Part shown: in pieces, positions 4,421 through 45,822 of the stretch
Layout: each line of letters starts with the position of its first letter
Position numbering within the stretch: position 1 is the first letter of the stretch
Source of the DNA: an uncultured Verrucomicrobiota bacterium
Lineage (GTDB): Bacteria > Verrucomicrobiota > Verrucomicrobiia > Chthoniobacterales > JACTMZ01
Length of the DNA stretch: 47,058 bases
Direction of reading: 5' to 3'
NCBI GenBank assembly: GCA_903953565.1
Contig: CAJBKE010000008.1
Coordinates: 1-47,058 of the forward strand
Position numbers and translations under genes: made by a program
Notes under the pieces: model-generated
Seen by the model: the letters and a program-made list of their open reading frames with translations, nothing else
Told to the model about the DNA's origin: nothing
Database searches by the model: none

Positions 4421-5398
4421 CTACGAGCAAACAAAGACCGGCGCCACGGAGATGCGCCGCGGACTGGGAGTCTCGCCGCGCAGGAGTTTGCTCAGGAGGC
4501 CAGCCGCTTTTTCGGCGATGAAGGCCGGACGCAGATCCACGAATGGCAGGCGCGAGGGCATGGCCTGCACGAGCGGCGTGCCGTCAAAGCCGATCACCGG
4601 CCCCCTTTGCTCCCCGGCGGTGAGGAACCAGGCCAAGGCGCAGACGTCATTGTATCCGATCACGGCGGTTTTCTTTTTCATGCTGGGGAGGGCGCGGGCC
4701 ACCCCGGCGACGGCAGCTTGAAAATCCCAACTCTCGCCTTCGAAATAAAACAACGACGGTTCTGGAAAGCCGCGGCTGCGGCAGACGTCGAGAAGCAGAT
4801 CGGGCCGCGCTTTGGGAAGGCCGGACATGCGCGCATAAGCGGGGGCGAAGTAGGCAATCCGGCCGACTCCCCGAGCGATCAGATGGTCCACCGCCAAGGC
4901 AAGGCCGTCCTTGATGTTGATCGTCACGGCCGCCTCGCCCGGGGGGGCGTAGCCAAGGAAAACGCGAGGGCACCCGGGCTTGACGGAGAGGTCGGCGCTG
5001 CGGCTCCCCCGCACTTCCGACCAGATAAGAAGCCCGTCCACCGCCCGCTCCAAGAGGGTTTGCTCCAAACGGTGTTCGTCGTCTGCATTGTCCGCTCCGT
5101 GGCAGGTAAGAATAAGTTCGTAGCCCAGCAGACGAAGGCGTTTTTCCAGCTCCAGCGACAGCAGGGCAAAAAATGGGTTTTGCAGATTGCCAGCCACCAA
5201 CCCCACCGTGTGGCTCTTGCGAATGCGCAGGCTTCCGGCTGCCCGGTTGCGCACATATCCCAAACGACGCGCCGCTTCTTTGACGCGCAGGCGGGTCTCC
5301 GGGCCGAATCGGGAATTTCGCGAGGCATCATTAAGGACGCTGGAAGCGGTTGTGGGATGCACATTGGCCTCCCTCGCTACATCTTTCAGATTAGGCAC
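4421..5398 (-). CDS. LacI-family transcriptional regulator
   Basis: The protein has an N-terminal LacI helix-turn-helix (LKDVAREANVHPTTASSVLND) with the hinge region (RRLGYVRNRAAGSLR), followed by a periplasmic-binding-protein-like sensor domain (VGLVAGNLQNPFFALL, DGLLIWSEVR, AVIGYNDVCALAWF, PVIGFDGTPL). The start is uncertain. A GTG at 5398 gives the standard family N-terminus (VPNLKDVA, 325 residues). An ATG at 5446 would add 16 residues and overlap the divergent aldolase start, because the CATG there is read on both strands. It lies between the divergent aldolase and the co-oriented kinase and isomerase, so it probably controls all three in response to their sugar or sugar phosphate. Confidence 0.9.
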   Translation of the reverse strand: MPNLKDVAREANVHPTTASSVLNDASRNSRFGPETRLRVKEAARRLGYVRNRAAGSLRIRKSHTVGLVAGNLQNPFFALLSLELEKRLRLLGYELILTCHGADNADDEHRLEQTLLERAVDGLLIWSEVRGSRSADLSVKPGCPRVFLGYAPPGEAAVTINIKDGLALAVDHLIARGVGRIAYFAPAYARMSGLPKARPDLLLDVCRSRGFPEPSLFYFEGESWDFQAAVAGVARALPSMKKKTAVIGYNDVCALAWFLTAGEQRGPVIGFDGTPLVQAMPSRLPFVDLRPAFIAEKAAGLLSKLLRGETPSPRRISVAPVFVCS

Positions 5399-6866: not shown

Positions 6867-8306
6867 TCAATTCTCCTCCGCAAGCGTGCCGCGGCGTTTT
6901 TCCAGCTCTTTGCGGATCGTGAGCGCACGGGCTTCGGTGATCGGATAGAAGCACGTGAGGAGGATCGCCCCGGCGATGGCCACGGTGGGGAGCCCGAGAT
7001 CAAGCACGCGCATCAGAAAGATTGTCCGCTCCGGTTGGGTGGCGCCGAGCGCGATGTCAAAGCCCGTGGCGTTGAGGATGAATCCCGAGAGAGTGAAAGC
7101 GAGCGTGGTGCCGAGCTTCATGATCCAGGCGTAGATCGCCCCGAGCGTTGCCTCCTTGCGCATGCCTGTCTCCAGTTCCAGAAGGTCGCAGACATCGGCC
7201 ATCATGGAGGAGGTGAGTGTCCAAAGTGCGCAGAAGCCGAGTGCAAGGAACAGCGAAGGGATCAAAAAGAGATACGGGTGCGTGGGCGAATAGCACACCC
7301 ACTTGAGCAGGCAGCCGACCACCGAGCAGGCTAGGAAAAGCACCAGCGCCGGCTTCTTGCCGAGGCGCACTCCCGCCGCGCCGACGATGAACACAAAAGC
7401 CAGGCTGCCTGCCTGCCAAGCCGTGCCCCCCCAGCCAAGCAGGATGGATGCTGGTTTTTCCGCGCCACCATAAATATGATAAATGGCAATGTAGGGGGTC
7501 AGGCTCGAGGTGCTGAAAACGCCCACGCACATAAGGAAGACGACGATGGAAAGGATGAGGAATGGCCGGTTTTTCAGCGTGCGGCCGACCTGGTGCATGA
7601 CGGTGGGGGGCTTCTCCCGTTCCGTCTTCGACACCACTCGCTCATGGCATTTGAAGGCGGAGACCAGGGCGAGCGCGGTAATGCAGATGCCCATGACAAT
7701 TCCGACCCATTTGGCCCCTTGAAGCGTGTCAGCAAACACCGACATTTGCGTCGCGGCATAGAGCCAGGGGATGCTGAGCAGCGCAACCGAGCACCAGAAG
7801 GAGTTGAACGCCATCAGCCGGGTGCGCTCGTCGTAGTCCGGCGTGAGGGAAAACCCCAACGCGCTCCAGGGAATGCCGAAGAGACTCGCGAACAGGAAGA
7901 AAATGATCGATATGAGGAAGAACCACCAAAAGTAGGCGTTACCGGACCAGCCGTGGGGCATCATCCACATCAGCGCAAAGGTCAGCCCGGCCCCGATGCC
8001 CCCCACAACCATGAACGGCTTCCGGCGGCCGTAGCGGGATTGGAAGTTGTCGGAGATGCCACCGATGACCGGATCGGCGAAGGCATCTAGGAACCGCGGG
8101 ATGGCGAGCGCCATCCCAACCATGGCGGGATTCACTCCGAGAGCCAAGGTGAGCACGAACTGCGCGAGGTTTCCCACGCTGTTGATCATCAGGTTGTAGG
8201 CCATGCCGCCGCTGGCATAGCCGAACTTGATACCAAGGGGCACCCGGTCGGCCGCGGCGGTGACATGCGCGCTGCCTTGGTGCTGCGGTTCCCCCGGTTG
8301 GATCAT
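6867..8306 (-). CDS. GPH/MFS-family sugar:cation symporter
   Basis: A 479-residue protein with about 12 hydrophobic segments. The glycoside-pentoside-hexuronide family signatures are visible: RFLDAFADPVIGGISD with SRYGRRKPFMVVGG after helix 2 (the D-P-GxxxD and R-x-GRR loop), IPWSALGFSLTPDYDERTRLMAF in the middle, and ASLFGIPW. The family imports oligosaccharides, glycosides or monosaccharides with Na+ or H+. The frame is open to 8354. The ATG at 8306 is chosen as the first start that leaves a short cytoplasmic N-terminus before helix 1. It is the last gene of the GH110-like/GH36/WbsX/AraC group and would import the galactosides that group releases. A decayed gene lies between it and the AraC gene. 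Confidence 0.9.
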   Translation of the reverse strand: MIQPGEPQHQGSAHVTAAADRVPLGIKFGYASGGMAYNLMINSVGNLAQFVLTLALGVNPAMVGMALAIPRFLDAFADPVIGGISDNFQSRYGRRKPFMVVGGIGAGLTFALMWMMPHGWSGNAYFWWFFLISIIFFLFASLFGIPWSALGFSLTPDYDERTRLMAFNSFWCSVALLSIPWLYAATQMSVFADTLQGAKWVGIVMGICITALALVSAFKCHERVVSKTEREKPPTVMHQVGRTLKNRPFLILSIVVFLMCVGVFSTSSLTPYIAIYHIYGGAEKPASILLGWGGTAWQAGSLAFVFIVGAAGVRLGKKPALVLFLACSVVGCLLKWVCYSPTHPYLFLIPSLFLALGFCALWTLTSSMMADVCDLLELETGMRKEATLGAIYAWIMKLGTTLAFTLSGFILNATGFDIALGATQPERTIFLMRVLDLGLPTVAIAGAILLTCFYPITEARALTIRKELEKRRGTLAEEN

Positions 8307-13137: not shown

Positions 13138-14979
13138 TTACTTTCGTTGGTCGTCCACCCGGAGTCCGGCTGGTTCGAATTTGACCCCCTGCCCGCCCGG
13201 CTGCAGCAGGCTTCCGAGCATGAGATCGGATGCGAAGCCAGGGTCCTGGACGCTCAGTTGGCTGATGACGACCCCGGCGCTGTTATCAACTTCCACTGCG
13301 GCGGATTTGAGCGTCTCCGCTGGTCCCGTGCGCTTGACCACGTTATTCTCGAGGATCGCGCCTTCGACGCCGCCGAGGCGGATGGCGGGGGCGGAAAGAT
13401 TTTCAAACGTGTTGCCGCGGATCTTGAGGTTCCGGAATGGCCGTATCCCGAGATCCGCTGGCTGCGACCCTTGCATGCTCGCTACAAAATCGATGGTCAC
13501 GTGGACCATAATGGCCGGCAGGATGCCGCCTTTGCCGACGAACTCGTTATCCGCGATGACGATGTTCCCCGGGGGCGGGCCTTCGCCATAGAGGCGCTCG
13601 CCGAAGCCGAGGTCGATGGCCCATCCCTCGTTGTTTTCAAACCGGTTCCGCTCGATGATCCCCCCCTTCGAACTCGCCAGAATCCCGCGTCCGCGGAACG
13701 AGAGAAATTTGCAGTCCCGGATCACAAACGGGCTGCCCGCTTCCGAGAGATTGTAGATCCGGTCCGCCTCGGCAAAGCTCCCTCCCGCCTTCAATCCCTC
13801 GATCGGTTTGGTGAACCGGATGCGCGTGCCACCCGGCCCGGGCTCCGAGGAGGCCACGGTCGTGCGGCCTTTTTCCGCCAGCGTTTGCGGGTCCATGACG
13901 ACCAGCTCATCGCCGGGCCGCACGCTCCAGGTGTGCTGCGGCGCGATAATCTCGGACGGCGAGACGATGTTTTGCACGAGAATGGCACTGCTGTGGATGT
14001 TGATCGCGTCGTCCGACATGCCCTCGAAGGAACATCCCTCGATGAGGATCTTGCCGCGGAGGCCGCGGGCGTGAATGCCGTCCGCATTCGAAGAGAGCGG
14101 CCGACCGGGCACCACGCGCACATGGCAGTCCACAAACGCAATCTCCCCGCCGCAGAGGATGGGCAGAAACGCCAGGCCCGGCGAGGCCAGGATCGTCACG
14201 CCCTCGGCGCGCACGTTGCTGGAATTACGGAAGCAGACGCCCGCGCCGTAGGTCCGCGGTATGTGGACGTAGCGCGTGCCCGGCTTGAGTTCCTCGACGG
14301 TGCAGGGTGGCCAGAACCATTGGTTGCTTCCCAGCCGCCAACGACGGCCTTCCACCAGAGAAATCTTCGCGCCGCCTCCGATGACGTTAGGCCCGTAGCG
14401 AGTCGTCCCGTGGGCTGGATCAGGACGCACGGTTATTCCCCAGAGGGCCTTGGCGTTTTCAGGCAAGAATGCGGGATGATCGAAAGCGAGCGACCCGGCT
14501 TCGAGATCGAGGTCGAACGTGCCGCCCTGCGGGTCCACCGACGCGATCGTCCCGCTGGCATACGGCAGCGGATCGTAATCCAACTGGAGGTCTTTGATCG
14601 CAACGTCGGTGCAGCCCTCAAAGAGCACGCCAACGGCCGAGGGATGGGTGAAGACGAGCGTTGTGGTGCCGCCCTTCGCGCCCCGCAGGGTGAGATCCCG
14701 CGCCCCGCGGACAGGCAAAGAAACCAGCTCGCCGTCCACCACAGGCGCGGTATCCACACGGTATGTCCCGGCCTCGAAGACCACCTCGGACGGTTTGCCG
14801 GACGCCTGTGCCGCCGCGATGCACTTGCGGATCGCCTCGCCATCGGCCTGCGCCTCATCGGGCACGGCTCCGAAATCGCGGACAAAAAATCTCGCCTTCC
14901 CACTTGCGGACGGATGATCGCACGAAGTGAGCATCGCGGCGCAGGCAATCAATACGGACACGGCTGGAAGAGGTCGCAT
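13138..14979 (-). CDS. right-handed beta-helix lipoprotein, GH110-like (putative alpha-1,3-galactosidase)
   Basis: A 613-residue protein. It starts with a lipoprotein signal peptide (hydrophobic stretch then LTSC, lipidated Cys20). It continues with a pectate-lyase-type start (FVRDFGAVPDEAQADGEAIRKCIAA), then beta-helix coils. Segments such as DGIHARGLRGKILIEGCSF followed by MSDDAINIHSS resemble GH110 alpha-1,3-galactosidases, where acidic residues in this region are catalytic. The family link is by pattern and the gene neighbours (GH36, WbsX-like) fit a galactoside substrate. It is first in the operon. Its promoter region shares an element with the broken gene at 15099-15449. It is likely tethered in the periplasm or outer membrane. 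Confidence 0.75.
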   Translation of the reverse strand: MRPLPAVSVLIACAAMLTSCDHPSASGKARFFVRDFGAVPDEAQADGEAIRKCIAAAQASGKPSEVVFEAGTYRVDTAPVVDGELVSLPVRGARDLTLRGAKGGTTTLVFTHPSAVGVLFEGCTDVAIKDLQLDYDPLPYASGTIASVDPQGGTFDLDLEAGSLAFDHPAFLPENAKALWGITVRPDPAHGTTRYGPNVIGGGAKISLVEGRRWRLGSNQWFWPPCTVEELKPGTRYVHIPRTYGAGVCFRNSSNVRAEGVTILASPGLAFLPILCGGEIAFVDCHVRVVPGRPLSSNADGIHARGLRGKILIEGCSFEGMSDDAINIHSSAILVQNIVSPSEIIAPQHTWSVRPGDELVVMDPQTLAEKGRTTVASSEPGPGGTRIRFTKPIEGLKAGGSFAEADRIYNLSEAGSPFVIRDCKFLSFRGRGILASSKGGIIERNRFENNEGWAIDLGFGERLYGEGPPPGNIVIADNEFVGKGGILPAIMVHVTIDFVASMQGSQPADLGIRPFRNLKIRGNTFENLSAPAIRLGGVEGAILENNVVKRTGPAETLKSAAVEVDNSAGVVISQLSVQDPGFASDLMLGSLLQPGGQGVKFEPAGLRVDDQRK

Positions 14980-34049: not shown

Positions 34050-35240
34050 GTGAACCTCGCCCTCGGAGTCATCTTGCATTGGATCGGCGGTTTGGCCGCC
34101 GCAAGTTTTTACATTCCCTACCGCGCGGTGCAGCGCTGGTCCTGGGAAACTTATTGGCTGGTTGGCGGATTTTTCAGTTGGATCGTCGCTCCTTCGCTCA
34201 TCGGAGCACTGCTCGTCCCCGATCTTTACGGGCACATTGCTGCGGCACCGCGCACGGCGATTTTCTGGGCTTATTTCTTCGGCGTGCTCTGGGGCATCGG
34301 AGGCATCACCTTCGGCCTCACCATGCGTTACCTCGGCATCGCGCTCGGCATGGCCGTCGTGCTCGGATTCTGCGCCGCCTTCGGCACGCTCATGCCGCCG
34401 ATCGTCGCGGGGGATTTCGGCGCACTGCTCGCCTCGGCCTCGGGCCTCACCGTCCTGGCCGGCGTGGCCGCGTGCCTGTTCGGTATCGGCATCAGCGGCG
34501 CGGCCGGCATGTCGAAGGAATCGGAGCTTTCAGACGAAGAGAAACTCGCCGCGGTCAAAGAGTTCAATTTCAAGAGAGGCATGCTCGTTGCCGCGTTCTC
34601 CGGCGTCATGAGCGCGTGCTTCGCTTACGGTCTCGCGGCCGGAAGACCGATCGGTGAAATCACGCTACAAGCGCTTGAGGCGTCCGGCGGCAGCCCTCTC
34701 TGGCAAAACCTTCCCGTGCTCGTCGTGGTGCTCTGGGGCGGATTCACCACCAATTTTCTTTGGTGCGTGGCGCTCAATGTCCGCAACCGCTCCACCCACC
34801 AATACCTCAACACGAGTCCCTCGCATCTCGCCGAAATGGGCGCGGCGGAGGCGGTGATGATGTCGGACGCCCCGGAGATCGCAGCCAACCGCGAAGCCGC
34901 CGCCCACGGCTCCTCGACCGGCCCAGTGCGTCCGGAGGGACCCGCACCGCTCGTGCGCAATTACCTCCTCTGCGCCCTCGCCGGGCTGACGTGGTATTTG
35001 CAGTTTTTCTTCTACAGCATGGGCGAGACCAAGATGGGAACCTACGCCTTCTCCAGTTGGACGCTGCACATGGCCTCCATCATCATTTTCAGCACGCTGT
35101 GGGGACTGGCACTCCACGAATGGCGCGGCTCGAGCCGCCGGACGATGACACTGGTTCTACTAGGCCTCTTCGTCCTCGTCGCCTCGACCATCATCGTCGG
35201 CTACGGCAACTACCTTGGCGGGAAAACCGGCACCCACTGA
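34050..35240 (+). CDS. rhaT: L-rhamnose:H+ symporter RhaT-like
   Basis: A 396-residue membrane protein with ten or so hydrophobic segments. Family features: an N-terminal helix ending SFYIPYRAVQRWSWETYWL, then GGFFSWIVAPSLIGALLVPD, FGVLWGIGGITFGLTMRYLGIALGMAVVLG, and the last helices YLQFFFYSMGETKMGTYAFSSWTLHMASIIIFSTLWG. These match the RhaT family. It is longer than the usual about 344 residues because of a loop with Ser/Pro/Ala content (about 265-305). It is co-transcribed with the isomerase and converges on the TIM-barrel copy 2, 13 bases away. Confidence 0.88.
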   Translation: MNLALGVILHWIGGLAAASFYIPYRAVQRWSWETYWLVGGFFSWIVAPSLIGALLVPDLYGHIAAAPRTAIFWAYFFGVLWGIGGITFGLTMRYLGIALGMAVVLGFCAAFGTLMPPIVAGDFGALLASASGLTVLAGVAACLFGIGISGAAGMSKESELSDEEKLAAVKEFNFKRGMLVAAFSGVMSACFAYGLAAGRPIGEITLQALEASGGSPLWQNLPVLVVVLWGGFTTNFLWCVALNVRNRSTHQYLNTSPSHLAEMGAAEAVMMSDAPEIAANREAAAHGSSTGPVRPEGPAPLVRNYLLCALAGLTWYLQFFFYSMGETKMGTYAFSSWTLHMASIIIFSTLWGLALHEWRGSSRRTMTLVLLGLFVLVASTIIVGYGNYLGGKTGTH

Positions 35241-35253
35241 CGCGCGAGGTCGA

Positions 35254-36153
35254 TTATTCCTGCGAGCTAGCGTCCTCGAACAGGCAACGCGCAATTTTGG
35301 CGTAAAGAAGCGCCTGCGCATAACGATCGGATTCCTCGACCACCATCCCGTCCGACCCGGGGAAGAGCCGTGCATAGTAGTGGGCGCCACCGAGCAACTC
35401 CGGCGCGAAGACAAGCACATCGCCGGGACCCGCATAGTTGCGGAATCCGCGCATCGCCCGCGCCCAGATCGTCCGGAAGTCGGCGAAGTAATCCACCACC
35501 CCGACGGCCGCAGCAGGACGGGAGTTGGTCTTGTCGATGGGAACCTGCATATGCCCGGGACTCGCTATGCGCCCGTGCATGAAGCCGATGCGGTCGAAGA
35601 TGGGCGCCATGAACTCCATTTTCATCTCCACCCCCCCATAGACCATTTCCTGTCCGCAGTAATAATGACTGAAGTCCCCGTTGAAGAGCACCTCGGGAAA
35701 CTTCTTGGTGATCTGAACCGTGCGCCACATGTCCTGCGTGATCGTGGCGCGGTGGGTTTCGATAAAAATCGGAAGTCCGGTTCTTTCCGATGCAGAGAGG
35801 ATGGCCTCGACGAGGCGAAAAACATCGTCATCGTCCTCGATCCCCCAGCCAACGTGGACAGTCAAGCATAGGTCGCCTCGCGCCGCATGCTTCTCGGCGA
35901 GGGGCAACGCCTCGCCGGGCTGATTGATCCGTCCGAGCCCGCAGTAGGCAAGCGGACCGGGCGGCTGAGGACCGTCATCCGTGAGCTGGACACCCTCGAA
36001 ACCGTCGGCGGCCAGTCGCTCGAGCAGCTCTTCCTTTGCCACGCCGGTCCAGATCGAATCGCGGCGCAGATCGACAAGATTATCTAGGTTGAGGAAGACC
36101 CGCAGCTTAGGGGCATCAACCGATCCGTCGTTGAGGTAACGTGGGCGTTTCAA
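35254..36153 (-). CDS. xylose-isomerase-like TIM-barrel epimerase/isomerase, copy 2
   Basis: A 299-residue near-duplicate of the protein at 26821-27717, with the same putative metal-ligand segments (HVGWGIED, IFIETHRATITQD, NGDFSHYY, HGRIASPGHMQVP). Start: an ATG at 36213 would give 20 extra residues inside the oxygenase gene. A TTG at 36153 gives MKRPRYLNDGS, which lines up with MVPRYLNDGS of copy 1. That TTG overlaps the stop of the upstream desaturase fusion as TTGA. The overlap implies translational coupling, so the TIM-barrel protein should act on the fusion's product. Confidence 0.78.
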   Translation of the reverse strand: MKRPRYLNDGSVDAPKLRVFLNLDNLVDLRRDSIWTGVAKEELLERLAADGFEGVQLTDDGPQPPGPLAYCGLGRINQPGEALPLAEKHAARGDLCLTVHVGWGIEDDDDVFRLVEAILSASERTGLPIFIETHRATITQDMWRTVQITKKFPEVLFNGDFSHYYCGQEMVYGGVEMKMEFMAPIFDRIGFMHGRIASPGHMQVPIDKTNSRPAAAVGVVDYFADFRTIWARAMRGFRNYAGPGDVLVFAPELLGGAHYYARLFPGSDGMVVEESDRYAQALLYAKIARCLFEDASSQE

Positions 36154-38444
36154 AATTCGTCGCAAGCTATCTGGGACGCGCTCACGCCGAGCTCGGTGAG
36201 CATCTTCCGGCACGCCTTGACCATCATCGGGGGCCCACAGAGGTAAAATTCCACAGCACGCACGTCCGGATGGTGACGAAGATGCCGGTCGAGAACGACC
36301 TCATGGATGAATCCCGCGGGACCATCCCAGCTGTCCTCCGGCAGCGGCGAGGAGAGCGCCGGGTGAAAACTGAAATTGCCGTGGCTAGCCGCGAGATCTT
36401 CGAAGTATTCCCCGTAATAGAGCTCCTGTTTCGAACGGGCTCCATACCAATAACTAATCTTGCGTGGCGAGTTCGCGGACTCAAGCAAGTGGCTGAGGTG
36501 TGCACGCAGCGGCGCCATGCCCGCACCGCCCCCGATGTAGACCATTTCCTTCTGCGTCGGCTTGACGTGGAAGTCACCGAAAGGCCCGACTGCGGTCACT
36601 TCGTCCCCCGGCTTCAAACTGAAGACGTAGGAGGATCCGATACCCGGGGGGCAATCTTGTCCGGGCGGCGGGGTGGCGATGCGGACATTGAATCGGAGCG
36701 TCCGCTCGCGGGACGGATTTGACGCCAGTGAGTAATTGTTGCGCTTACCGGACGAGGGATTGGCGGCCTCGAGATCGAAGACGTGCTGTTGGCGCCAGAC
36801 GGCTGCAAACGGCTCGGGAATGTCGAAGTCCCGGAAGCGAATGCGATCGTAAGGCGGGATTTCGATTTGCAAGTAATCGCCCGGAGTGAAATCAAGCTTT
36901 GCGGAAGAATCCAACGGTTCCAGGACAAGTTCTTTGATGAAGGTTGCGACACTCCGATTGCTGACAACCCGAAACTGCAGCGTCGCTTGCTGACGGGACC
37001 CCGCTCCGCCCGCGCGGAGAACGTTGAGCCATAACCGGCCGCCACGCTCCTTGATCGGGTAAGTGGCAAGCCCGCGGCATATGGGGGCCCGGGCAGGCGA
37101 ACCGTCGGCGAGATGAAACCGGCCGTTGTGTTTGGGGCATTCTATAATGCCGTCCTTGACGAGGCCGCCTGCGAGATGGGTGTTGCCATGGGTGCAGATG
37201 CCATCGGTGGCGTGGAGCGCACCCCGCTCGTCGCGGATCAGGGCATAGGTTTTGCGCCCATGGTCGAAACGAAGCACATCGGAAGCATCGAGATCGGCGG
37301 CCGCACATACCTCGATCCAGCCCGCCGCATCGGGCTTGGCGTCGTTTCCCTGCGGTTGCTCGGCGCCACTGTTCCGGGGCGGCGGGAGCTTGCGCTTCAC
37401 GTGGTAGGACGGATCAGACACCTGCCGCAGCACAGCCGGCAATATTTCCCGCCAAGCGGCTGCCAGCGACGGATAAGGCGGCGGACAGTCGTCTTTGATC
37501 AGCTCATGCAGTTTCGGAAGGTTGTGATAAGGCACCAACGGGAACATGTGATGCTCGAGGTGGTAGTTCATGTTCCAGTAAACAAAGCGACTGAACGGAT
37601 TCATGAAAACCGTGCGGCAGTTCAACCGGTGGTCGAGCACGTTCTCCGCCAGCCCGGCGTGCTGTGTCGTGTTGTGGACAATCATGAGCCACGTGCCGAA
37701 AAAATGCGGGAGGATGACGAGGAAGACCGGAACCCAGGATTTCAGCGCGATGGCGAGGACAATGGTTGCGACATAGATACCGAGGACAATACGCGCGTTG
37801 CGGAAAATTTTTGGAAATTCGCTCTCCGGAATAAACGTCCTCTCATCCGGCGTCACACGCCCGAACGCATGACCGATTAGTCCGGGGAAATACCCGCGGT
37901 AAACACCGATCGCGAAAAGGCTCATGAGATGCGACGTTATGTCCGGAGGGCGGGAAACTTGGATTTCCGGATCCCGACCGACGATGATGGTGTCTGAATG
38001 GTGCCGTGTGTGGCTCCAGCGCCAGACCACGGACTCGCGCATGACCATGAACGACGCCAGTTCGTAGAGGGCGTTGTTCAGCCAGTCCGTTTTGAATGCG
38101 GTTCCGTGACCCGCCTCATGCCATCGAGAGTCCGAAGCTGTGGCGTAGAGCACGGCATACAGAGCGTAGGGCAACACAACCCACCAACTGCCCCAAAGCG
38201 CAACAGTGCCCCACGCCGTGAGCCCCAATAGCGCAAACCACAGCAGCGTGTCGCGCAGCGCCGGCCCATCGCGCCGCTCCAGCAGGCCGCGCAACGCTTT
38301 GCGCGGAACCGGGGTTTGATACCAATCCGCCTCGGCGAGACCCATTTCGATCGCCTTGGCTGCATTGTTTCCAGTGAGGGAGTAGTCGAGACGCTCCGGT
38401 GGCTTGGTGACCGGAGCAAACGCCGTGGGGGAGTCGTGGTCCAT
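36150..38444 (-). CDS. three-domain oxygenase: desaturase-type diiron domain, Rieske ferredoxin, NqrF-like FAD/NAD reductase
   Basis: A 764-residue fusion. Residues about 40-350: membrane diiron oxygenase of the fatty-acid-desaturase/MocD type, with His boxes HEAGH (109-113), HTRHH (145-149) and HLEHH (295-299), and hydrophobic segments between. Residues about 375-475: Rieske domain with Cys417/His419 (ICTHGNT) and Cys436/His439 (CPKHNG). Residues about 485-764: reductase with RNNYSLAS (FAD), GGGAGMAPLRAHL (NAD) and CGPPMMVKA, close to the flavin part of NqrF but without its plant-type ferredoxin. The chain holds a full electron path from NADH to the diiron site. It parallels MocD, MocE and MocF of rhizopine demethylation. 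It is divergent from an AraC gene and coupled to the TIM-barrel gene. The ATG at 38444 is chosen over 38573, which overlaps the AraC gene. Confidence 0.88.
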   Translation of the reverse strand: MDHDSPTAFAPVTKPPERLDYSLTGNNAAKAIEMGLAEADWYQTPVPRKALRGLLERRDGPALRDTLLWFALLGLTAWGTVALWGSWWVVLPYALYAVLYATASDSRWHEAGHGTAFKTDWLNNALYELASFMVMRESVVWRWSHTRHHSDTIIVGRDPEIQVSRPPDITSHLMSLFAIGVYRGYFPGLIGHAFGRVTPDERTFIPESEFPKIFRNARIVLGIYVATIVLAIALKSWVPVFLVILPHFFGTWLMIVHNTTQHAGLAENVLDHRLNCRTVFMNPFSRFVYWNMNYHLEHHMFPLVPYHNLPKLHELIKDDCPPPYPSLAAAWREILPAVLRQVSDPSYHVKRKLPPPRNSGAEQPQGNDAKPDAAGWIEVCAAADLDASDVLRFDHGRKTYALIRDERGALHATDGICTHGNTHLAGGLVKDGIIECPKHNGRFHLADGSPARAPICRGLATYPIKERGGRLWLNVLRAGGAGSRQQATLQFRVVSNRSVATFIKELVLEPLDSSAKLDFTPGDYLQIEIPPYDRIRFRDFDIPEPFAAVWRQQHVFDLEAANPSSGKRNNYSLASNPSRERTLRFNVRIATPPPGQDCPPGIGSSYVFSLKPGDEVTAVGPFGDFHVKPTQKEMVYIGGGAGMAPLRAHLSHLLESANSPRKISYWYGARSKQELYYGEYFEDLAASHGNFSFHPALSSPLPEDSWDGPAGFIHEVVLDRHLRHHPDVRAVEFYLCGPPMMVKACRKMLTELGVSASQIACDEF

Positions 38445-38503
38445 AAGGGTAAAAACGTAGTTCAGGCAGACATCCGCGGGAATGGACACGACCGCACGAT
38501 CGC

Positions 38504-39385
38504 ATGTATTTTCCGGATATGGCGAAAGTCCCCGACCGGTATCGACTGTATTCCTTTCCAGAGCAGCACACACCTCTCGGGCGTGTGCATTTCGGGGGTG
38601 AACTCCCGCAAAGCCAAGGAACGGGATGGGATGGCTATCGCGAATACGGCATGTATGCCGCGGTCTTGATCACGCGCGGCAACGGCGTCTATCGGGATGC
38701 GGCCGGCCGGGAAATTGGATTGTGTGAGGGGTGCGTAATTCTAGTCTTTCCGGAAGTTCCCCACCACTACGGACCGGCACCGGGCAAACTTTGGGATGAG
38801 GTCTTCGTGGCTTTCAGCGGGGCCGCCTTCGACGCCTGGCGAGGCCACGGGCTGGATCCGATTCACCCCGTCTGGCGCCTGCAGAACGCGCGCCGCGAGG
38901 CGGATTTCCTCCGCTCCCTATTGCGAAAAAAGGTCGAGGACCTGCGGGGTTCAATCAAACAAGCCGCGGATGTGCACGAGATGCTGGCGCGATGGTTGGC
39001 ACAGCGACCGAATGAACAGGGCATGCCGGTGTGGCTGGAAAAAGCCCGCCGGACTTTGGCTGCTCTACCGGAGCAGCGGACCCCAGCCTCCGTCGCACGG
39101 GAGTGCGGCCTCCACGCCGACGCATTCCGCCGCGCCTTCCGGAAATGGACCGGGGAAACGCCAGCCCAGTTCCGGCGCCGACACCGCCTGGCCATGGCTG
39201 TCGATCTGCTCCGGCGACAAGAACTCAGCCTGGGGCAGATCGCCGAGTCACTCGGCTTTCACGACGCGTTTCATTTTTCGAAACGCTTCAAGGAAGCTTA
39301 TGGAACCCCACCCTCCGTCTTCCGCAACATGCCTCCCGAACCAATAGGGAAGATGCTCCGTCCGTGTCGCAAGTCGACGCGGTAA
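38504..39385 (+). CDS. AraC-family transcriptional regulator
   Basis: A 293-residue regulator. The N-terminal cupin-like domain has GMYAAVLITRGNGVYRDAAG and CEGCVILVFPEVPHHYGP. The C-terminal ~100 residues have two helix-turn-helix motifs (ASVARECGLHADAFRRAFRKWTG; LGQIAESLGFHDAFHFSKRF) and the family end GTPPSVFRNM. ATG at 38504 or 38522 are both possible starts. It is divergent from the desaturase-Rieske-reductase gene (60-77 bases between starts) and should control it. It is not closely similar to the AraC gene at 28769. Confidence 0.92.
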   Translation: MYFPDMAKVPDRYRLYSFPEQHTPLGRVHFGGELPQSQGTGWDGYREYGMYAAVLITRGNGVYRDAAGREIGLCEGCVILVFPEVPHHYGPAPGKLWDEVFVAFSGAAFDAWRGHGLDPIHPVWRLQNARREADFLRSLLRKKVEDLRGSIKQAADVHEMLARWLAQRPNEQGMPVWLEKARRTLAALPEQRTPASVARECGLHADAFRRAFRKWTGETPAQFRRRHRLAMAVDLLRRQELSLGQIAESLGFHDAFHFSKRFKEAYGTPPSVFRNMPPEPIGKMLRPCRKSTR

Positions 39386-39439: not shown

Positions 39440-39598
39440 TCATCGGTGCGTTTCGGGATGCAGGAAGATCGAGTAGTTCGAGACACCGTGGTCTTTGAGG
39501 ACCTTCTCCAACTCCGGCCAGATCGGGTTGTGGCGTTTTTCGTACTCCTCCTCGGCGCCGGCGTTGACTGACATGATGAAGGCTTTGCGGATTTTCAT
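39440..39598 (-). pseudogene. rhaM: truncated L-rhamnose mutarotase (N-terminal half)
   Basis: ATG 39598 opens 52 codons ([20 protein letters not shown], then [30 protein letters not shown]). This is the first half of RhaM-type L-rhamnose mutarotase, which has about 104 residues, and stops at TGA 39440-39442. The rest of the enzyme is missing. A diverged second copy lies at 40352-40656 beyond the vapBC genes. The rest of 39386-39669 holds no gene I can support. Confidence 0.8.
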
Positions 39599-39669
39599 GA
39601 ATTGTTGGTGTACGAGACCGTGTGATCTTGGTCAGCGCGTCCTCCGCGGGGGCACGGACGGGCGCTTTT

Positions 39670-40089
39670 TCACTTGGACTTACGCGAGCACCAATCCGAC
39701 GGTGTCACGCCACCGGCCCGCTCGATCAGTTCGTTGTCCCACGTGACAAGCGTCGTTCCCGTCGACGCCGCGGCGGCGACGTAGATGGCGTCTGCCCCGC
39801 GCAGCAGGCCACGCGTCCCGCAAGTCAACGCTTCGTCGATCAATGTCATATCCACGTCCACCCATCGCAGGACGGGAATCGCCTGCAGGCTCCGGGCCAC
39901 GGCTATACCCTTGGCACCGTCCTGCTGTCTGCGGGCCATCGCACATGCTGTCTCCACGATGGCCAGCGAAGGAGCGAACATCTCAACGCGCCGCCGCTCG
40001 CACTCCCGCAGGAAGGCGACACTTTCGATGTGGAAAGCGTCCTTCGGCTCGAAAAAGGCCGTCCAGACGCTGGCATCGATCGTGATCAT
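39670..40089 (-). CDS. vapC: VapC-type PIN-domain toxin
   Basis: A 139-residue PIN ribonuclease with the expected acidic residues: Asp5 (MITIDASV), Glu46 (IVETACA), Asp100 (GADAIYVAAA) and Asp118 (TWDNEL). VapC toxins cleave tRNA or other RNA when freed from the antitoxin. Its start overlaps the stop of the antitoxin gene as ATGA, the usual antitoxin-toxin order. It is placed between two broken rhamnose-mutarotase copies. Confidence 0.92.
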   Translation of the reverse strand: MITIDASVWTAFFEPKDAFHIESVAFLRECERRRVEMFAPSLAIVETACAMARRQQDGAKGIAVARSLQAIPVLRWVDVDMTLIDEALTCGTRGLLRGADAIYVAAAASTGTTLVTWDNELIERAGGVTPSDWCSRKSK

Positions 40090-40355
40090 CGGGCGGCACG
40101 CTCCAGACGGTTTCGGTCCTTCTCGAGGATTTCCCGCGCGGTGGGACCGGGCCGGTCAACCGGCACAGCATGCTCAAGGAGTTGATCCACCCAGCTGACC
40201 GGCGACTCCCCCGCCGCATGAGTGGCACTTCCCGGCTCTTGGACCCAGTTGCGGAACAACTCAATGGTCACATCACGCACAGCCCGCCCTTTAAGAGCTG
40301 TCTTGGCCTTCACACGACGGTAAAGATCATCCGGAATATCGATGGTTGCTTTCAT
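40086..40355 (-). CDS. vapB: VapB-type ribbon-helix-helix antitoxin
   Basis: An 89-residue protein. The N-terminal ribbon-helix-helix (MKATIDIPDDLYRRVKAKTA, then RAVRDVTIELFRNWV) binds its own promoter. The C-terminal tail (about 50-89) should wrap and neutralise VapC. It is translationally coupled to vapC. Its start overlaps the end of the broken rhaM copy 2 frame. Two tandem CAG(C/T)TTAC octamers lie directly upstream (40362-40377). Confidence 0.9.
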   Translation of the reverse strand: MKATIDIPDDLYRRVKAKTALKGRAVRDVTIELFRNWVQEPGSATHAAGESPVSWVDQLLEHAVPVDRPGPTAREILEKDRNRLERAAR

Positions 40356-40656
40356 GTTATACAGCTTACCAGTTTACAAGTTCGTGTCAATCGACCCGAG
40401 AACTTAGCATCGCCCATGTGTTGCCAGCATCCTTGGCACGCCTCCGTTAAGCCAACGGGCACCCACTGTTCCTCGCTCTCGATTTCGGCGTAGCCGAAAA
40501 GCTGGTGAGTCTCGGTGTGCAGGAAGATCGAGTAGTTCAAGACGCCGTGGCCTTTGAGCACCTTCTCCAACTCGGGCCAGATTGGATTGTGCGGCTTGTG
40601 GCATTCCGTGTCGGCGCCGGCACGAACCGACAAGACGAGGCTTTGCGGATTTTCAT
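40352..40656 (-). pseudogene. rhaM: frameshifted L-rhamnose mutarotase, copy 2
   Basis: ATG 40656 gives MKIRKA and then goes out of frame. After a shift of one base the RhaM sequence continues ([67 protein letters not shown]). It then loses similarity before reaching vapB. So the copy has an early frameshift and a replaced C-terminus. Its start is 36 bases after the sulfatase gene, the position of a last gene of that operon. Confidence 0.75.
40356..40390 (-). promoter_or_regulatory. vapB promoter/operator region
   Basis: Two tandem octamers CAGCTTAC and CAGTTTAC (40362-40377) lie next to the vapB start and are a plausible VapB binding site. TATAAC (40361-40356, minus strand) touches the ATG, and TTGACA (40390-40385) lies 23 bases from it, too far for a standard pair. 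The exact promoter is unsure. Confidence 0.35.
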
Positions 40657-40692
40657 GGTTGGCAAGTTTTCAGAGCTAAACCCTACGCGGGT

Positions 40693-43035
40693 TTATTCCA
40701 AGTAAGCCGGACGGAAGACATCAACCGGTTTGCCTTGGGGCATGCTGCGGAAGCGCTCCCACGCGCGGCGGGTAGCCGGGTCGTTTTCATCGGGCAGCGG
40801 GATCGCCTTCAGATATGTCTCGAAGCGCTGGCGGGCGGCAATGACTTCCGGGTCTGTGGAATCGCTCACATCGCGGTATTCGTCGCGGTTGGCCGCGCCA
40901 CGAGTGTCATAGAAGCGCCCTCGCCCATCGAGGAGCCAGTCTTTGTCGCGCACCCAACGCGCATTGTTCATGGCCATTTGGATGGTCTCGCGCGGGGCGA
41001 ACGGTTCTCCGAGAAGATACGGGGCGAAGCTGTGGCCGTCGGTGTTCATCGGTCCGCGATACCCGGCGAGCTGGGCGAAAGTCGGCCAGAAATCGGTGAA
41101 GTCGACGAGCACTTCGCTGGAATCGCGGGGCTTGACCGGCCCGCCGCCCACGACCAAAGGCACGCGGATGCCGTTGTCGCGGTCGTAGCTGTTTTTGTCC
41201 ATGACCTCATTGCTGCCGCGGATCTCAGCCGTTCCGTTATCGGCAGAGAAGAAGATGATGGTGTCCTTCGCCCTTCCCTGCCTGGCCAATCCCTCGCGGA
41301 GACGGCCGAGCAAATGGTCGAGGTATTGCATGTTCGACTCGAGCGCGCCGGGCACTTTGCCGCCGGTCGGACGACCTTGTTTGTCCAACTCCGGCACATC
41401 GGTGTAATACCAGCGTCCCTCGAGCGAACCAGCTACCTCCTCGTGCGCTTTGTGCGCGAGATTGGTCGCCCAGTAAGCGATGAACGGTTTGTCGCGGTCC
41501 GGCGCAGTGAACTCCAACAAATGCTTCAGTTCCAGATCGGGCCCGAAGTCATCCGGCGTGGCCGGCACCCCCTTGCCATTGCGGACGAGACCCGGGTGCC
41601 AATACCAAGAGACGCCATACATGTCGTTCCGGTCGGGCGACCAATGATTTTGCCGCGGCCCATCATGCCCCGGCCAATACCACGCAATCAGCCAGTCCTC
41701 CGCCCCCAGAACACCCGCATCGGGACCATCCCCGGGGTGCTTTTTGCCGATCATGCTGGTGGCATAACCAGCCTCCTTCATCATCTTGAGCACCGGCAGA
41801 TGTCGCGAATCTTCCCAAAACGGGACTTCGGGGCACACCGGGTTCTCATAGTAGCCGGTATTGTGCGGGTATTTTCCGGTCATCATCATGGCACGCGACG
41901 GGGCACACACGGGCGTGGACCACGCATTCCGGAAAAGGACACCGTCGTCGGCCAACTTCTGCAGGTTGGGCATGGGAATGGAGCCGCCGTAGGGCGACAA
42001 CTCGCAAGCCGAGACATCGTCCGCGAGAATGAAGACGATGTTGGGAGGACGCGCTGCGGTCAGGTTGCGCTCCCCGTCATCGCGGATCGCGCGCGGTGAT
42101 GCCGGAGTGAAAACATTTGCCGTCACCGTATTGTCGTCGGCGAAATCGCGGTTGTCGGCACTGCTTCCGAAATTGTAACCGGCATCGGCTTCGCAGTAAC
42201 TGCGGCGCCCTTGACGGGAACCGAGCCAGATCCCGTAGCTGCCGGGACGCAATCCGGAGAGATCGAAGGTATTGTTCTCGATGCGGTTTTCGCGAGGCGT
42301 TTGGTGGCGCACCGTGCCCCCCTCACCGCAGTTGCGATAAAGGTATATGCCGCCGAAAGCGGCGCGGACGAAGCGGTTTCCTTCGATAACATTGCAGGCT
42401 GATCCATCGACGGCGATAACCTCGCGGGCCGCACGGAGGTCGAAGGTGCAATTTTCTATTCTGTTACCCGCACTTTCGGCATCGAAATAAACAACCGTTG
42501 AAACCGTCGAACCAGTGAACGCGCAGTCTTTCACGGTCACGCCAGTGACACCCGGCCCCAAGTAGAGCGGGATGCGGTGCTCCGCCTCGATCTGCAGATT
42601 TTCGAGGACGATTTCCCGGGGCGCCGCCGCTTGGGCGCGTTCCGTGTGGCCCTCGCTCACGGAAGACTCGCGCACGCGCGGCGCTTCCCCATTGCGCCCC
42701 ATTCCGGAGATGCGGATCGCTCCGCGCAAACGTCCGTTGCGGATGGTGATGCGTTGAGGAACATCCCAACCGTCGCGTGCTTCCTGCGAGCGAATGAGAA
42801 TCTCGGTTGGTTTCCCTTCGTTGAACCATCCGCCCTGCAAATCGATCACCGTTCCGCTGGCCGAACTTCCGGCAAGCTCCACCATTTCCAGACGAGGCGC
42901 CGGAGCGAGCAGTTTCAGGAGGCTCGAAGGCGCGACGTAAAACCAAATCCCAAGCAATGATGCTGATAAGGCGACGACAGCGGAAAGCACCGCCACGCTG
43001 CGTCGACAACTCGAGTGCTTCTTAGGGTGCGTCAT
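40693..43035 (-). CDS. beta-helix/sulfatase fusion, type I formylglycine sulfatase
   Basis: A 780-residue protein. The N-terminus has a transmembrane anchor or uncleaved signal (VAVLSAVVALSASLLGIWFYV). Residues about 45-315 form a right-handed parallel beta-helix (IENCTFDL, NVIEGNRFVRAAFGGIYLY, NRIENNTFDL). Residues about 330-780 are a type I sulfatase: PNIVFILADDV (metal Asp339/Asp340), STPVCAPSRAMMMTGKYPHN (C-x-P-S-R, Cys377 to become formylglycine), IGKKH and FFSADNGTAE. It hydrolyses sulfate esters, probably on a polysaccharide held by the beta-helix part, outside the cytoplasm. Activation requires a sulfatase-maturating enzyme, not seen here. It follows fucP (66 bases), consistent with a sulfated fucose- or rhamnose-containing glycan. 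Confidence 0.85.
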   Translation of the reverse strand: MTHPKKHSSCRRSVAVLSAVVALSASLLGIWFYVAPSSLLKLLAPAPRLEMVELAGSSASGTVIDLQGGWFNEGKPTEILIRSQEARDGWDVPQRITIRNGRLRGAIRISGMGRNGEAPRVRESSVSEGHTERAQAAAPREIVLENLQIEAEHRIPLYLGPGVTGVTVKDCAFTGSTVSTVVYFDAESAGNRIENCTFDLRAAREVIAVDGSACNVIEGNRFVRAAFGGIYLYRNCGEGGTVRHQTPRENRIENNTFDLSGLRPGSYGIWLGSRQGRRSYCEADAGYNFGSSADNRDFADDNTVTANVFTPASPRAIRDDGERNLTAARPPNIVFILADDVSACELSPYGGSIPMPNLQKLADDGVLFRNAWSTPVCAPSRAMMMTGKYPHNTGYYENPVCPEVPFWEDSRHLPVLKMMKEAGYATSMIGKKHPGDGPDAGVLGAEDWLIAWYWPGHDGPRQNHWSPDRNDMYGVSWYWHPGLVRNGKGVPATPDDFGPDLELKHLLEFTAPDRDKPFIAYWATNLAHKAHEEVAGSLEGRWYYTDVPELDKQGRPTGGKVPGALESNMQYLDHLLGRLREGLARQGRAKDTIIFFSADNGTAEIRGSNEVMDKNSYDRDNGIRVPLVVGGGPVKPRDSSEVLVDFTDFWPTFAQLAGYRGPMNTDGHSFAPYLLGEPFAPRETIQMAMNNARWVRDKDWLLDGRGRFYDTRGAANRDEYRDVSDSTDPEVIAARQRFETYLKAIPLPDENDPATRRAWERFRSMPQGKPVDVFRPAYLE

Positions 43036-43101: not shown

Positions 43102-44568
43102 TCAGACAGCGCCTGACTCCGTCCCGCCCAGCCTCCGCCACAGAACCCCATAGGCACATACAAAGAGGAAGCAGACGAGCGGGACGATAAAGCTGAAGGA
43201 AACGTTCGTCAGGTCGGCGATATGTCCCATGAGCTTGGGCACGATAGCCCCGCCCATGATGGCCATGACCAGATAGGACGCTGCCCGCTTCGCCCCGGCG
43301 CCGAGGCCTGCGATTCCAAGCGCGAAAATTGTCGGAAACATGATGGACATGACAAAGTAGGCCCCGAACACAGCACCGGTGGAAATCCATCCCAACTTGA
43401 GGACGATCAGCCCGCAAAGCAGAGCACCCAAGGCGCCGTAGAGCCCAAGCACACGGTGCGCGCGGAATTTTTTAACCAAGCCCGCCCCCGTGAAACGTCC
43501 GACGAGGAAGCACAGAAATCCCACCGAGGCCAACGTCGATGCGGTGGCGTTGGAGACCACAACCGGCGGTTGGGATGTCATGTAGTTGATGAAATAAGCG
43601 AAGATGCCGGATTGCGCGGCGACATAGAAAAACTGCGCGAGAGTGGCTGCCGAGAAGTGAGGTTTCAGCCAGATGCTATCGGACGCGATCCGTCCAGCGC
43701 GCACCGCAAGCAACACGCTAAGCAGTGCCGCAGCGGCCAGCGAGACAGTGAGCAGCACCTTGCCGAAAATCGCCTGATTGAAGATGGAGGCCACCGCTGT
43801 GGCAATCATGCCCAGTGAAACCGAGAGAACGAGCAGGTTGAGCCAGAGCAAGCCCATGGCAACGCCGCGTCCGGGGCGCGCAACGACTGAGGCAGTTGCG
43901 CTGTGACCGGCCGATGAGCCCGCTTCGCCCTCGCCCGGCGTGATGTCGGGCAACTTGACTCGTGCAAAGATCACGGCCAGCAGCAGAACAACGACGCCGA
44001 CCGCCGCGTAGGGAATCCACAATGTCTCCGCACCCGTGCTCTTCCCTGTGTGGTCCGTGCCATAGAAAAACATGGCGCCCGCCATCGGTCCAAACACCCA
44101 CCCGATACCATTGAAGGATTGGGCCAAGTTGATGCGGGTTGCCGCATAAGCGGGCGCTCCGAGCACGGTGGTGTATGGATTGGCAACGGTCTCGAGAAAG
44201 GTAAGCCCTGCGGCGATGATGCACACACCGAGAAGGAAGGCCCAGAACTGCGCAATCTGCGTGGCAGGTATGAACCAGAGGCCCCCGACAGCCACCATGA
44301 GCAGCCCAGCAACGATACCGCCCTTGTAACCGAGCCGCATTGCCAGCCAACCAGCGGGCAATGCCATGAGAAAGTATCCGAGATAGTGCGCAAACTGCAC
44401 CCAGGCGGATTGCGCCAAGGTGAGCCCCAGCTCCTCTTGGAAATGCTTGTCCATCACGTCGATCATCCCATTGCAGAATCCCCAGAGGAAAAACAGGGAC
44501 GTGACGAGAGCGAAGGTGACGAAGTGATTACGGCCGTCAGCCGTGGTGAATAAGCGGGAAGCGTTCAT
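43102..44568 (-). CDS. fucP: FucP-like MFS sugar permease
   Basis: A 488-residue MFS transporter of the fucose:H+ symporter type. Characteristic segments: HFVTFALVTSLFFLWGFCNGM at helix 1, FAHYLGYFLMALPAGWLA, TFLETVANPYTTVLG (the FucP LETxANPY helix), NLAQSFNGIGWVFGP and, in the second half, FFYVAAQSGIFAYFINYM and FPTIFALGIAGLG. It lies three bases after the DUF6786-like gene. It probably imports L-fucose or a related sugar; other substrates of this family include glucose and galactose. Confidence 0.88.
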   Translation of the reverse strand: MNASRLFTTADGRNHFVTFALVTSLFFLWGFCNGMIDVMDKHFQEELGLTLAQSAWVQFAHYLGYFLMALPAGWLAMRLGYKGGIVAGLLMVAVGGLWFIPATQIAQFWAFLLGVCIIAAGLTFLETVANPYTTVLGAPAYAATRINLAQSFNGIGWVFGPMAGAMFFYGTDHTGKSTGAETLWIPYAAVGVVVLLLAVIFARVKLPDITPGEGEAGSSAGHSATASVVARPGRGVAMGLLWLNLLVLSVSLGMIATAVASIFNQAIFGKVLLTVSLAAAALLSVLLAVRAGRIASDSIWLKPHFSAATLAQFFYVAAQSGIFAYFINYMTSQPPVVVSNATASTLASVGFLCFLVGRFTGAGLVKKFRAHRVLGLYGALGALLCGLIVLKLGWISTGAVFGAYFVMSIMFPTIFALGIAGLGAGAKRAASYLVMAIMGGAIVPKLMGHIADLTNVSFSFIVPLVCFLFVCAYGVLWRRLGGTESGAV

Positions 44569-44571
44569 GGG

Positions 44572-45822
44572 TCATTTAGCCGCCCCAGCGAAAGCATCGC
44601 GAATTTCGCGGATGCCCGCACCGAGCTTTGCTTCGGCAATGGGATCGAGTTGTTCGGGTTGCCCGGCGAAATGCACGGTGACTTGTTTGTGCGTCAGACT
44701 GGCTCCGGGCGCCAGCTCCGCGCCGGGCGAAGAGGTTTCCAGTTCGTAGAAGGGGCCGAGAGGAGGTTCACCGGGGGCCGGGGATCCGTCATTGTAAGCG
44801 TTGATCACGTCGCCGGCGTAGGGGTTCTCCTGCTTTTCCCACATCGAATTGACGTAGCGGCCGTCCTTCTCCACCGGCTCGCAACGCACGATGGTCAGCG
44901 CGCCGAGATCGGGAGAGTAGCTGCCAGCGAAAGGCGTGGATCGCGACGGCGGGATGCCGATCTTGCCGCGCGCGGCGCCGTCGCCTTTGAAAAAGACCAC
45001 GCCCTTGCCGACCTTGAGCCGGTCCGGCGCGATCTTGCCGAAGTAAGCATCGTTGACCACCGGCCCCTCAGCGTCCGCGCGGAACGGGATGGCCATGACG
45101 GTCGACGGCGAGGGCTTATACATGCCCAGAATCCAGACCGAGAGAAGTCCGGTGTCCGCATCCCACGCCTTCTCGCCGCGGTTGGTGATGGTGTTGACTG
45201 TCTCGTAGGCGACGAACGGCAAATCTTCGGGAATTGTCACACCCAAGGCCTGCGCGGTCTGCTCACGATCGAGCAAGCGCACCGTGCGCTCGGCACCGAC
45301 GTCGAACTTTGTGCCGGACTGGTTCGTCACCATAAAGTTGCGAGCGAAGACGGCCTTTGTTTCATCCGAAGACACCTTGTCGAAGGCTTCGGTATCGATG
45401 GCGACGGGTGTCTTCCAGTCCGCGAAATCGAACTTCGCTCCCGGCGCGAAGAAGATGCCGAACTGGCCACCCTCGGGCCCCAGCCAAAACCGCTCCTCGC
45501 CGCCGAAAACATGGATTTTGGATTCGAGCGTGCCCTTGGCTTCCTCCGGCGGGACGACGCCTTTGGCGATGAGTTTGTAATTGAGCCAACCGTAACTGTT
45601 GCCGCCGTCGCCCGTGGCCGTGCTGGTCATGACGCGCCCTTGATACGCCGGCGCAACGGCCACGGCCGCGTCACCGCGGCGCAGAACGATCGCGTCGGTA
45701 TGTTTTTTCAAGAAGGCAACGTCTTCGCCGAAGTTTGAGGGTGTGTTTTCCATGGGTTCGGAGGAGGCGACCAAACTTGTCGCCGTGAATGTGGCTAGGA
45801 GAAGGGTGAGGCAGTTATTCAT
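44572..45822 (-). CDS. secreted protein of the DUF6786-like type, mutarotase-like fold
   Basis: A 416-residue exported protein with an N-terminal signal peptide (MNNCLTLLLATFTATSLVAS). The body is beta-rich with YQGRVMTSTATGDGGNSYGWLNY, FGGEERFWLGPEGGQFGIFF and FFKGDGAARGKIGIPPSRS, a pattern I associate with the DUF6786 family, which has an aldose-1-epimerase-like sandwich. Catalysis is not demonstrated. It sits in the operon with GH116-type, FucP and sulfatase genes and is likely to handle a released or surface sugar. Confidence 0.65.
   Translation of the reverse strand: MNNCLTLLLATFTATSLVASSEPMENTPSNFGEDVAFLKKHTDAIVLRRGDAAVAVAPAYQGRVMTSTATGDGGNSYGWLNYKLIAKGVVPPEEAKGTLESKIHVFGGEERFWLGPEGGQFGIFFAPGAKFDFADWKTPVAIDTEAFDKVSSDETKAVFARNFMVTNQSGTKFDVGAERTVRLLDREQTAQALGVTIPEDLPFVAYETVNTITNRGEKAWDADTGLLSVWILGMYKPSPSTVMAIPFRADAEGPVVNDAYFGKIAPDRLKVGKGVVFFKGDGAARGKIGIPPSRSTPFAGSYSPDLGALTIVRCEPVEKDGRYVNSMWEKQENPYAGDVINAYNDGSPAPGEPPLGPFYELETSSPGAELAPGASLTHKQVTVHFAGQPEQLDPIAEAKLGAGIREIRDAFAGAAK

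Follow-up and report, generated by a model that had tools for sequence, protein, structure and literature searches.

One protein encoded in the window, the 47,058-nucleotide stretch of DNA analyzed here in full, was confirmed to carry an N-terminal anchor, a beta-helix, and an S1-type sulfatase, in that order. Two genomes, that of the window and L027, each encode the fusion as a single, conserved ORF. The helix belongs to a widespread, highly conserved, uncharacterized family, and because the fusion links this family with a sulfatase and with the breakdown of fucose and rhamnose, it gives a hint at what the family does.

The fused protein and its two domains

The 780-amino-acid ORF is intact and starts with ATG (Table 1). 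Because an antisense ORF of 505 amino acids overlaps it, ORF length alone is no proof of a gene; that the gene is real is indicated by its domain matches, by the L027 homolog with the same architecture, and by low dN/dS. The first-pass annotation had placed a sulfatase behind a membrane-anchored beta-helix, and its coordinates, domain order, and C-x-P-S-R motif match this ORF, the Pfam domains, and C377-A-P-S-R381. Its estimate of about 270 residues of helix ahead of the sulfatase agrees with the ~280 assigned here (residues ~45-325), and the membrane anchor is borne out by a hydrophobic stretch (residues 14-32, mean hydropathy 2.25) within a helix modeled by AF2 (residues 8-34). The AF2 model of the full-length fusion, with a pLDDT of 66, is too poor for domain geometry.

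Table 1. Position, strand, and basis of the features of the fused gene and its neighborhood in the window.
Feature	Position	Strand	Basis
Fused beta-helix-sulfatase gene, 780 aa	40693..43035	-	ORF call, Pfam, same fusion in L027
N-terminal tail and transmembrane anchor, residues 1-34, hydrophobic core 14-32	42934..43035	-	Hydropathy; AF2 helix 8-34
Right-handed parallel beta-helix domain, residues ~45-325	42061..42903	-	PF13229, TIGR03804 repeat, AF2 pLDDT 93.8, VIA-align Z 18-21 vs beta-helix enzymes
Junction, last helix segment DDGERNLTAA (319-328)	42052..42081	-	Stand-alone helix proteins end here; remnant kept in helix-less G002
S1-type sulfatase domain, residues 329-780, including stop codon	40693..42051	-	PF00884 E 2e-40; closest solved structure 6prm E 6e-27
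Sulfatase maturation motif C377-A-P-S-R381 (formylglycine site)	41893..41907	-	Motif alignment
MFS permease closest to L-fucose:H+ symporter FucP, upstream, same direction	43102..44568	-	TIGR00885 256 bits, below equivalog cut-off 280
DUF6786 protein	44572..45822	-	PF20583; synteny
RhaT-type sugar symporter	34050..35240	+	PF06379; 69% homolog near L028 stand-alone helix
Desaturase-Rieske-reductase fusion	36150..38573	-	Pfam; 73% homolog near L028 stand-alone helix

The sulfatase half matches Pfam Sulfatase PF00884 over the entire profile (1-301 of 301; residues 331-659, E 2e-40, 139 bits against a cut-off of 25). Alignment with other sulfatases places the active-site set at D339, D340, C377, R381, K431, H433, H528, D599, and N600, with K614 as a candidate further active-site residue, and the predicted active site is complete. 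The same genome encodes an FGE (PF03781, 282 bits) and has no match to anSME. The nearest solved structure is the exo-4S-kappa-carrageenan sulfatase PfS1_19B (6PRM, 6PSM; ~98 bits, E 6e-27), which shares the sulfatase fold family and the complete set of active-site motifs. PfS1_19B has no beta-helix and acts on carrageenan, whereas the fusion described here lies in a fucose/rhamnose gene context; because similarity is low, 6PRM does not fix the substrate of this sulfatase.

In the helix half, Pfam detects Beta_helix PF13229 above its cut-off (residues 157-271, E 9.6e-8), NCBIfam finds TIGR03804 repeats, and AF2 models the domain alone with a mean pLDDT of 93.8. Seventy-three helix positions are conserved in at least 90% of 54 homologs, and the fused copy retains 71 of these 73; conserved residues include D185, E187, R204, E205, D210, R234, N235, E238, R243, H244, and Q245. 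By fold (VIA-align, Z 18-21), lyase, epimerase, depolymerase, and hydrolase families match about equally well, and the adhesin PfbA is also among the matches. Lyases, alginate epimerases, and capsule depolymerases (7w1c, 6kfn, 8ja4, 5lw3, 4nk6) have the same fold (Z 19-21 over 202-215 residues, rmsd 2.3-2.6), but the fused helix is only 12-14% identical to them and many families are tied. The structural comparison with lyases and GH28/GH110 helices that the first-pass annotation had proposed recovers a shared beta-helix fold, with matches that tie across families. The PDB holds no sequence relative of the helix at E<=1, and Pfam gives the helix no polysaccharide lyase, GH28, GH110, or alginate epimerase family match. 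Attempts to place the helix in a known CAZy family, through Pfam and NCBIfam profiles, PDB sequences, or fold comparison, gave no decisive match. The glycan role first suggested for the helix is plausible in view of its conserved polar residues, its fold, and the fucose/rhamnose context, while the comparisons above point to no single catalytic family.

Stand-alone forms, fusion, and loss of the helix

The helix is usually a protein on its own, with an anchor or signal at its N-terminus. Scanning the helix family alignment against 84,980 species genomes gave 223 relatives, all of this uncharacterized family, with L027 the best. Stand-alone helices share 74% (G102/L028), 61% (G235/L031), and 58% (G069/L035) identity with the fused helix, and more distant ones from Rhizobiaceae, Cyanobium, Neisseria, and others share 44-55%. 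Taken with Alkanindiges, the stand-alone family has the same domain at 44-76% identity; it differs in that no sulfatase is attached and none lies in the flanks inspected. The stand-alone helices of Verrucomicrobia terminate in a RAIRDDGxxN-like motif, the same C-terminal end as in the fused helix, where the fusion runs on into the sulfatase, and several have the same kind of N-terminal anchor. Close relatives of the sulfatase also stand alone, with cleavable-looking signal peptides (G100, 61%; G808, 50%). Because both halves occur separately and the stand-alone helix ends at the junction, the fusion appears to have joined two existing genes near their domain ends. Altogether, these alignments show a helix of the stand-alone type whose natural C-terminus runs on in frame into the predicted mature part of an S1-type sulfatase.

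The second copy of the fusion, in L027 (MAG contig CAIVXP010000324.1), is one ORF of 788 amino acids with the same junction. The two proteins are 83% identical over query residues 12-779 (helix 84%, sulfatase 85%), and their DNA is 83.7% identical in the helix part and 81.5% in the sulfatase part. Between the two genes, dN/dS is 0.138 for the helix and 0.101 for the sulfatase (dS 0.6-0.9); judged by these ratios, both halves are under purifying selection. The similar nucleotide identity of the two halves, together with these ratios, therefore indicates that they have been co-inherited. The L027 contig is 5.6 kb long, and its binning is uncertain, since the fusion is absent from relatives of the MAG, which is labeled Akkermansiaceae.

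The best 80 of the 223 helix loci were inspected for a neighboring or fused sulfatase; among these 80, only L027 has a matching sulfatase in its flanks, and further fusions are possible among the ~140 others. No further fusion was found among 57 relatives scanned with the helix query, among 59 relatives of G785, in genomes of the order (213), class (384), or a phylum sample (387), or on plasmids at a required coverage of at least 80%. Viral contigs gave no match in a close-relative scan with the sulfatase.

G002, a genome from the same genus, has the orthologous locus with the helix missing: the DUF6786 gene and the sulfatase are 92.9% and 84.8% identical to those of the window in DNA, and the G002 contig and the window have a further matching stretch elsewhere on the contig. 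The anchor of the G002 sulfatase matches that of the L027 fusion in 41 of 51 nucleotides (score 31; the highest-scoring of 2000 shuffles reached 17); the anchor of the window itself has diverged and has no significant match to the G002 anchor. The ten codons that follow the G002 anchor find their best in-frame match in the fused genes at the helix C-terminus (19 and 20 of 30 nucleotides). In a FastTree phylogeny of the sulfatase domain, G002 groups with the window, and L027 falls outside (SH-like 0.84). Since G002 retains the anchor and about ten of the last helix codons, the fusion would be older than the split between the window and G002, and the simplest history is apparently a single fusion followed by an in-frame deletion of the helix in G002. 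The helix seems dispensable there, as G002 lost it and kept the anchor and sulfatase. The reverse order, in which a helix was inserted into a sulfatase that already had its anchor, is less likely, given that a similar anchor and juxtamembrane segment come with the stand-alone helices and that G002 holds a remnant of the helix.

The stand-alone helix, the fusion, and the helix-deleted fusion at an orthologous locus make a clear case of domain gain and loss among polysaccharide-utilization genes. The trio also provides ready-made constructs for asking what the helix contributes, be it activity, binding, or nothing at all. At the same locus, the permeases between the DUF6786 gene and the sulfatase (6873-8129 on the G002 contig L147, compared to 43102-44568 in the window) share only 30% identity, while both neighbors are 85-93% identical in DNA, so the transporter has apparently been swapped.

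Gene neighborhood and predicted function

In addition to the neighbors in Table 1, the cluster in the window encodes sugar-isomerase-like, GH106-like, melibiase-like, and WbsX/GH99-like proteins. On the G002 contig, a GH78 rhamnosidase adjoins the sulfatase, and an L-fucose isomerase lies beyond DUF6786. The L028 stand-alone helix also has RhaT and the desaturase-Rieske protein beside it. Based on the FucP-like and RhaT neighbors, together with the rhamnosidase and L-fucose isomerase in G002, we infer that the substrate class is sulfated fucose/rhamnose glycans and that the fused protein has a role in their use. Use of such glycans has been reported for Verrucomicrobiota in general (PMC8857213, PMC5615132).

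Several other features of the neighborhood were observed. A DUF6786 protein is encoded near the fused gene, near the G002 sulfatase, and directly after the stand-alone helix in L036 (9177-10316), from a Paludibacter-labeled MAG, which suggests a functional link between this protein and helix/sulfatase loci. The desaturase-Rieske-reductase protein (807 aa) combines a fatty-acid-desaturase-type domain, a Rieske domain, and an FAD/NAD reductase, and is possibly a sugar-modifying oxygenase. Just downstream of the sulfatase, at 39440-40690, two broken copies of L-rhamnose mutarotase (rhaM, PF05336) lie on either side of a pair of genes, one for a PIN-domain (VapC-like) protein (39670-40089) and one that probably encodes an antitoxin (40086-40355); G002 has a third rhaM remnant at the equivalent place (L147 ~5240-5360). 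The cluster includes a second beta-helix protein (13138-14979, 613 aa) that is pectate-lyase/rhamnogalacturonase-like, and a protein with passenger-associated transport repeats (PF12951) is encoded at the edge of the window (1-1800).

We favor, with moderate confidence, a membrane-anchored two-domain protein that processes sulfated fucose/rhamnose glycans and whose helix is probably enzymatic. The N-terminal helix would insert the protein into the membrane and leave both domains outside the cytoplasm, a topology assumed from the anchor. The FGE of the same genome would convert C377 to formylglycine, and the sulfatase would then cleave sulfate esters off oligosaccharides that contain fucose and/or rhamnose. 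The same class of glycan would be the target of the beta-helix, a member of an uncharacterized family and probably a lyase, hydrolase, or epimerase, and the sugars would enter via the FucP- and RhaT-type permeases encoded nearby. The suggestion that the protein joins glycan action to desulfation needs loosening on one point: the two domains need not act together on one polymer, as G002 keeps the sulfatase without the helix.

Membrane position seems to matter more than the helix in G002, where the anchor is kept and the helix lost. This loss, together with the presence of the adhesin PfbA among the fold matches, fits a rather less probable alternative, in which the helix is non-catalytic and instead binds glycan or acts as a spacer, keeping the sulfatase off the membrane and near the polymer. 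However, the stand-alone family is conserved, and in its dense charged and aromatic conservation it resembles an enzyme more than a spacer. We consider it unlikely that the fusion is nearly neutral, with two independent enzymes sharing an anchor, uncoupled, and the helix on its way to being lost: the rarity of the fusion (two genomes), its loss in G002, and the decay of rhaM just downstream agree with this, but the helix dN/dS between the window and L027 and the retention of nearly all of its conserved positions point to selection on the helix inside the fusion. The window is a MAG contig and stand-alone forms exist elsewhere, but an assembly or sequencing error that joined two genes has a negligible probability and is contradicted by L027, an independent MAG contig that repeats the in-frame junction at the identity and dS given above, and by the junction remnant in G002; with L027, both findings that had been named beforehand as refuting the fusion, a sequencing error and the lack of any homolog with the same architecture, are excluded.

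Returning to the glycan-processing protein with a probably enzymatic helix, a bolder and more tentative extension is that the helix represents a new carbohydrate-active enzyme family, stand-alone in Verrucomicrobia, Rhizobiaceae, cyanobacteria, and Neisseria, whose fusion to a sulfatase may reveal its substrate class in this lineage, sulfated fucose/rhamnose glycans.

Relation to known sulfatase fusions

Our literature search, which used limited terms and is not proof of absence, found no description of a beta-helix-sulfatase fusion. In lake Verrucomicrobia, sulfatase genes often adjoin putative pectin lyase genes (PMC5615132). Sulfatases fused to glycoside hydrolases are established: P36 of Formosa agariphila joins an S1_25 sulfatase to a GH78 rhamnosidase, with domains that act in consecutive steps (PMC8511951), and PVC sulfatase-GH fusions have GH10, GH32, and GH29 partners (PMC6388578). 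Thus, the fusion described here is a new combination of known parts and not a new kind of system. Like P36 and the PVC fusions, it places a sulfatase and a second, putatively glycan-active domain in one protein; while their partners belong to assigned GH families, the partner here is an N-terminal, membrane-anchored beta-helix of an uncharacterized family.
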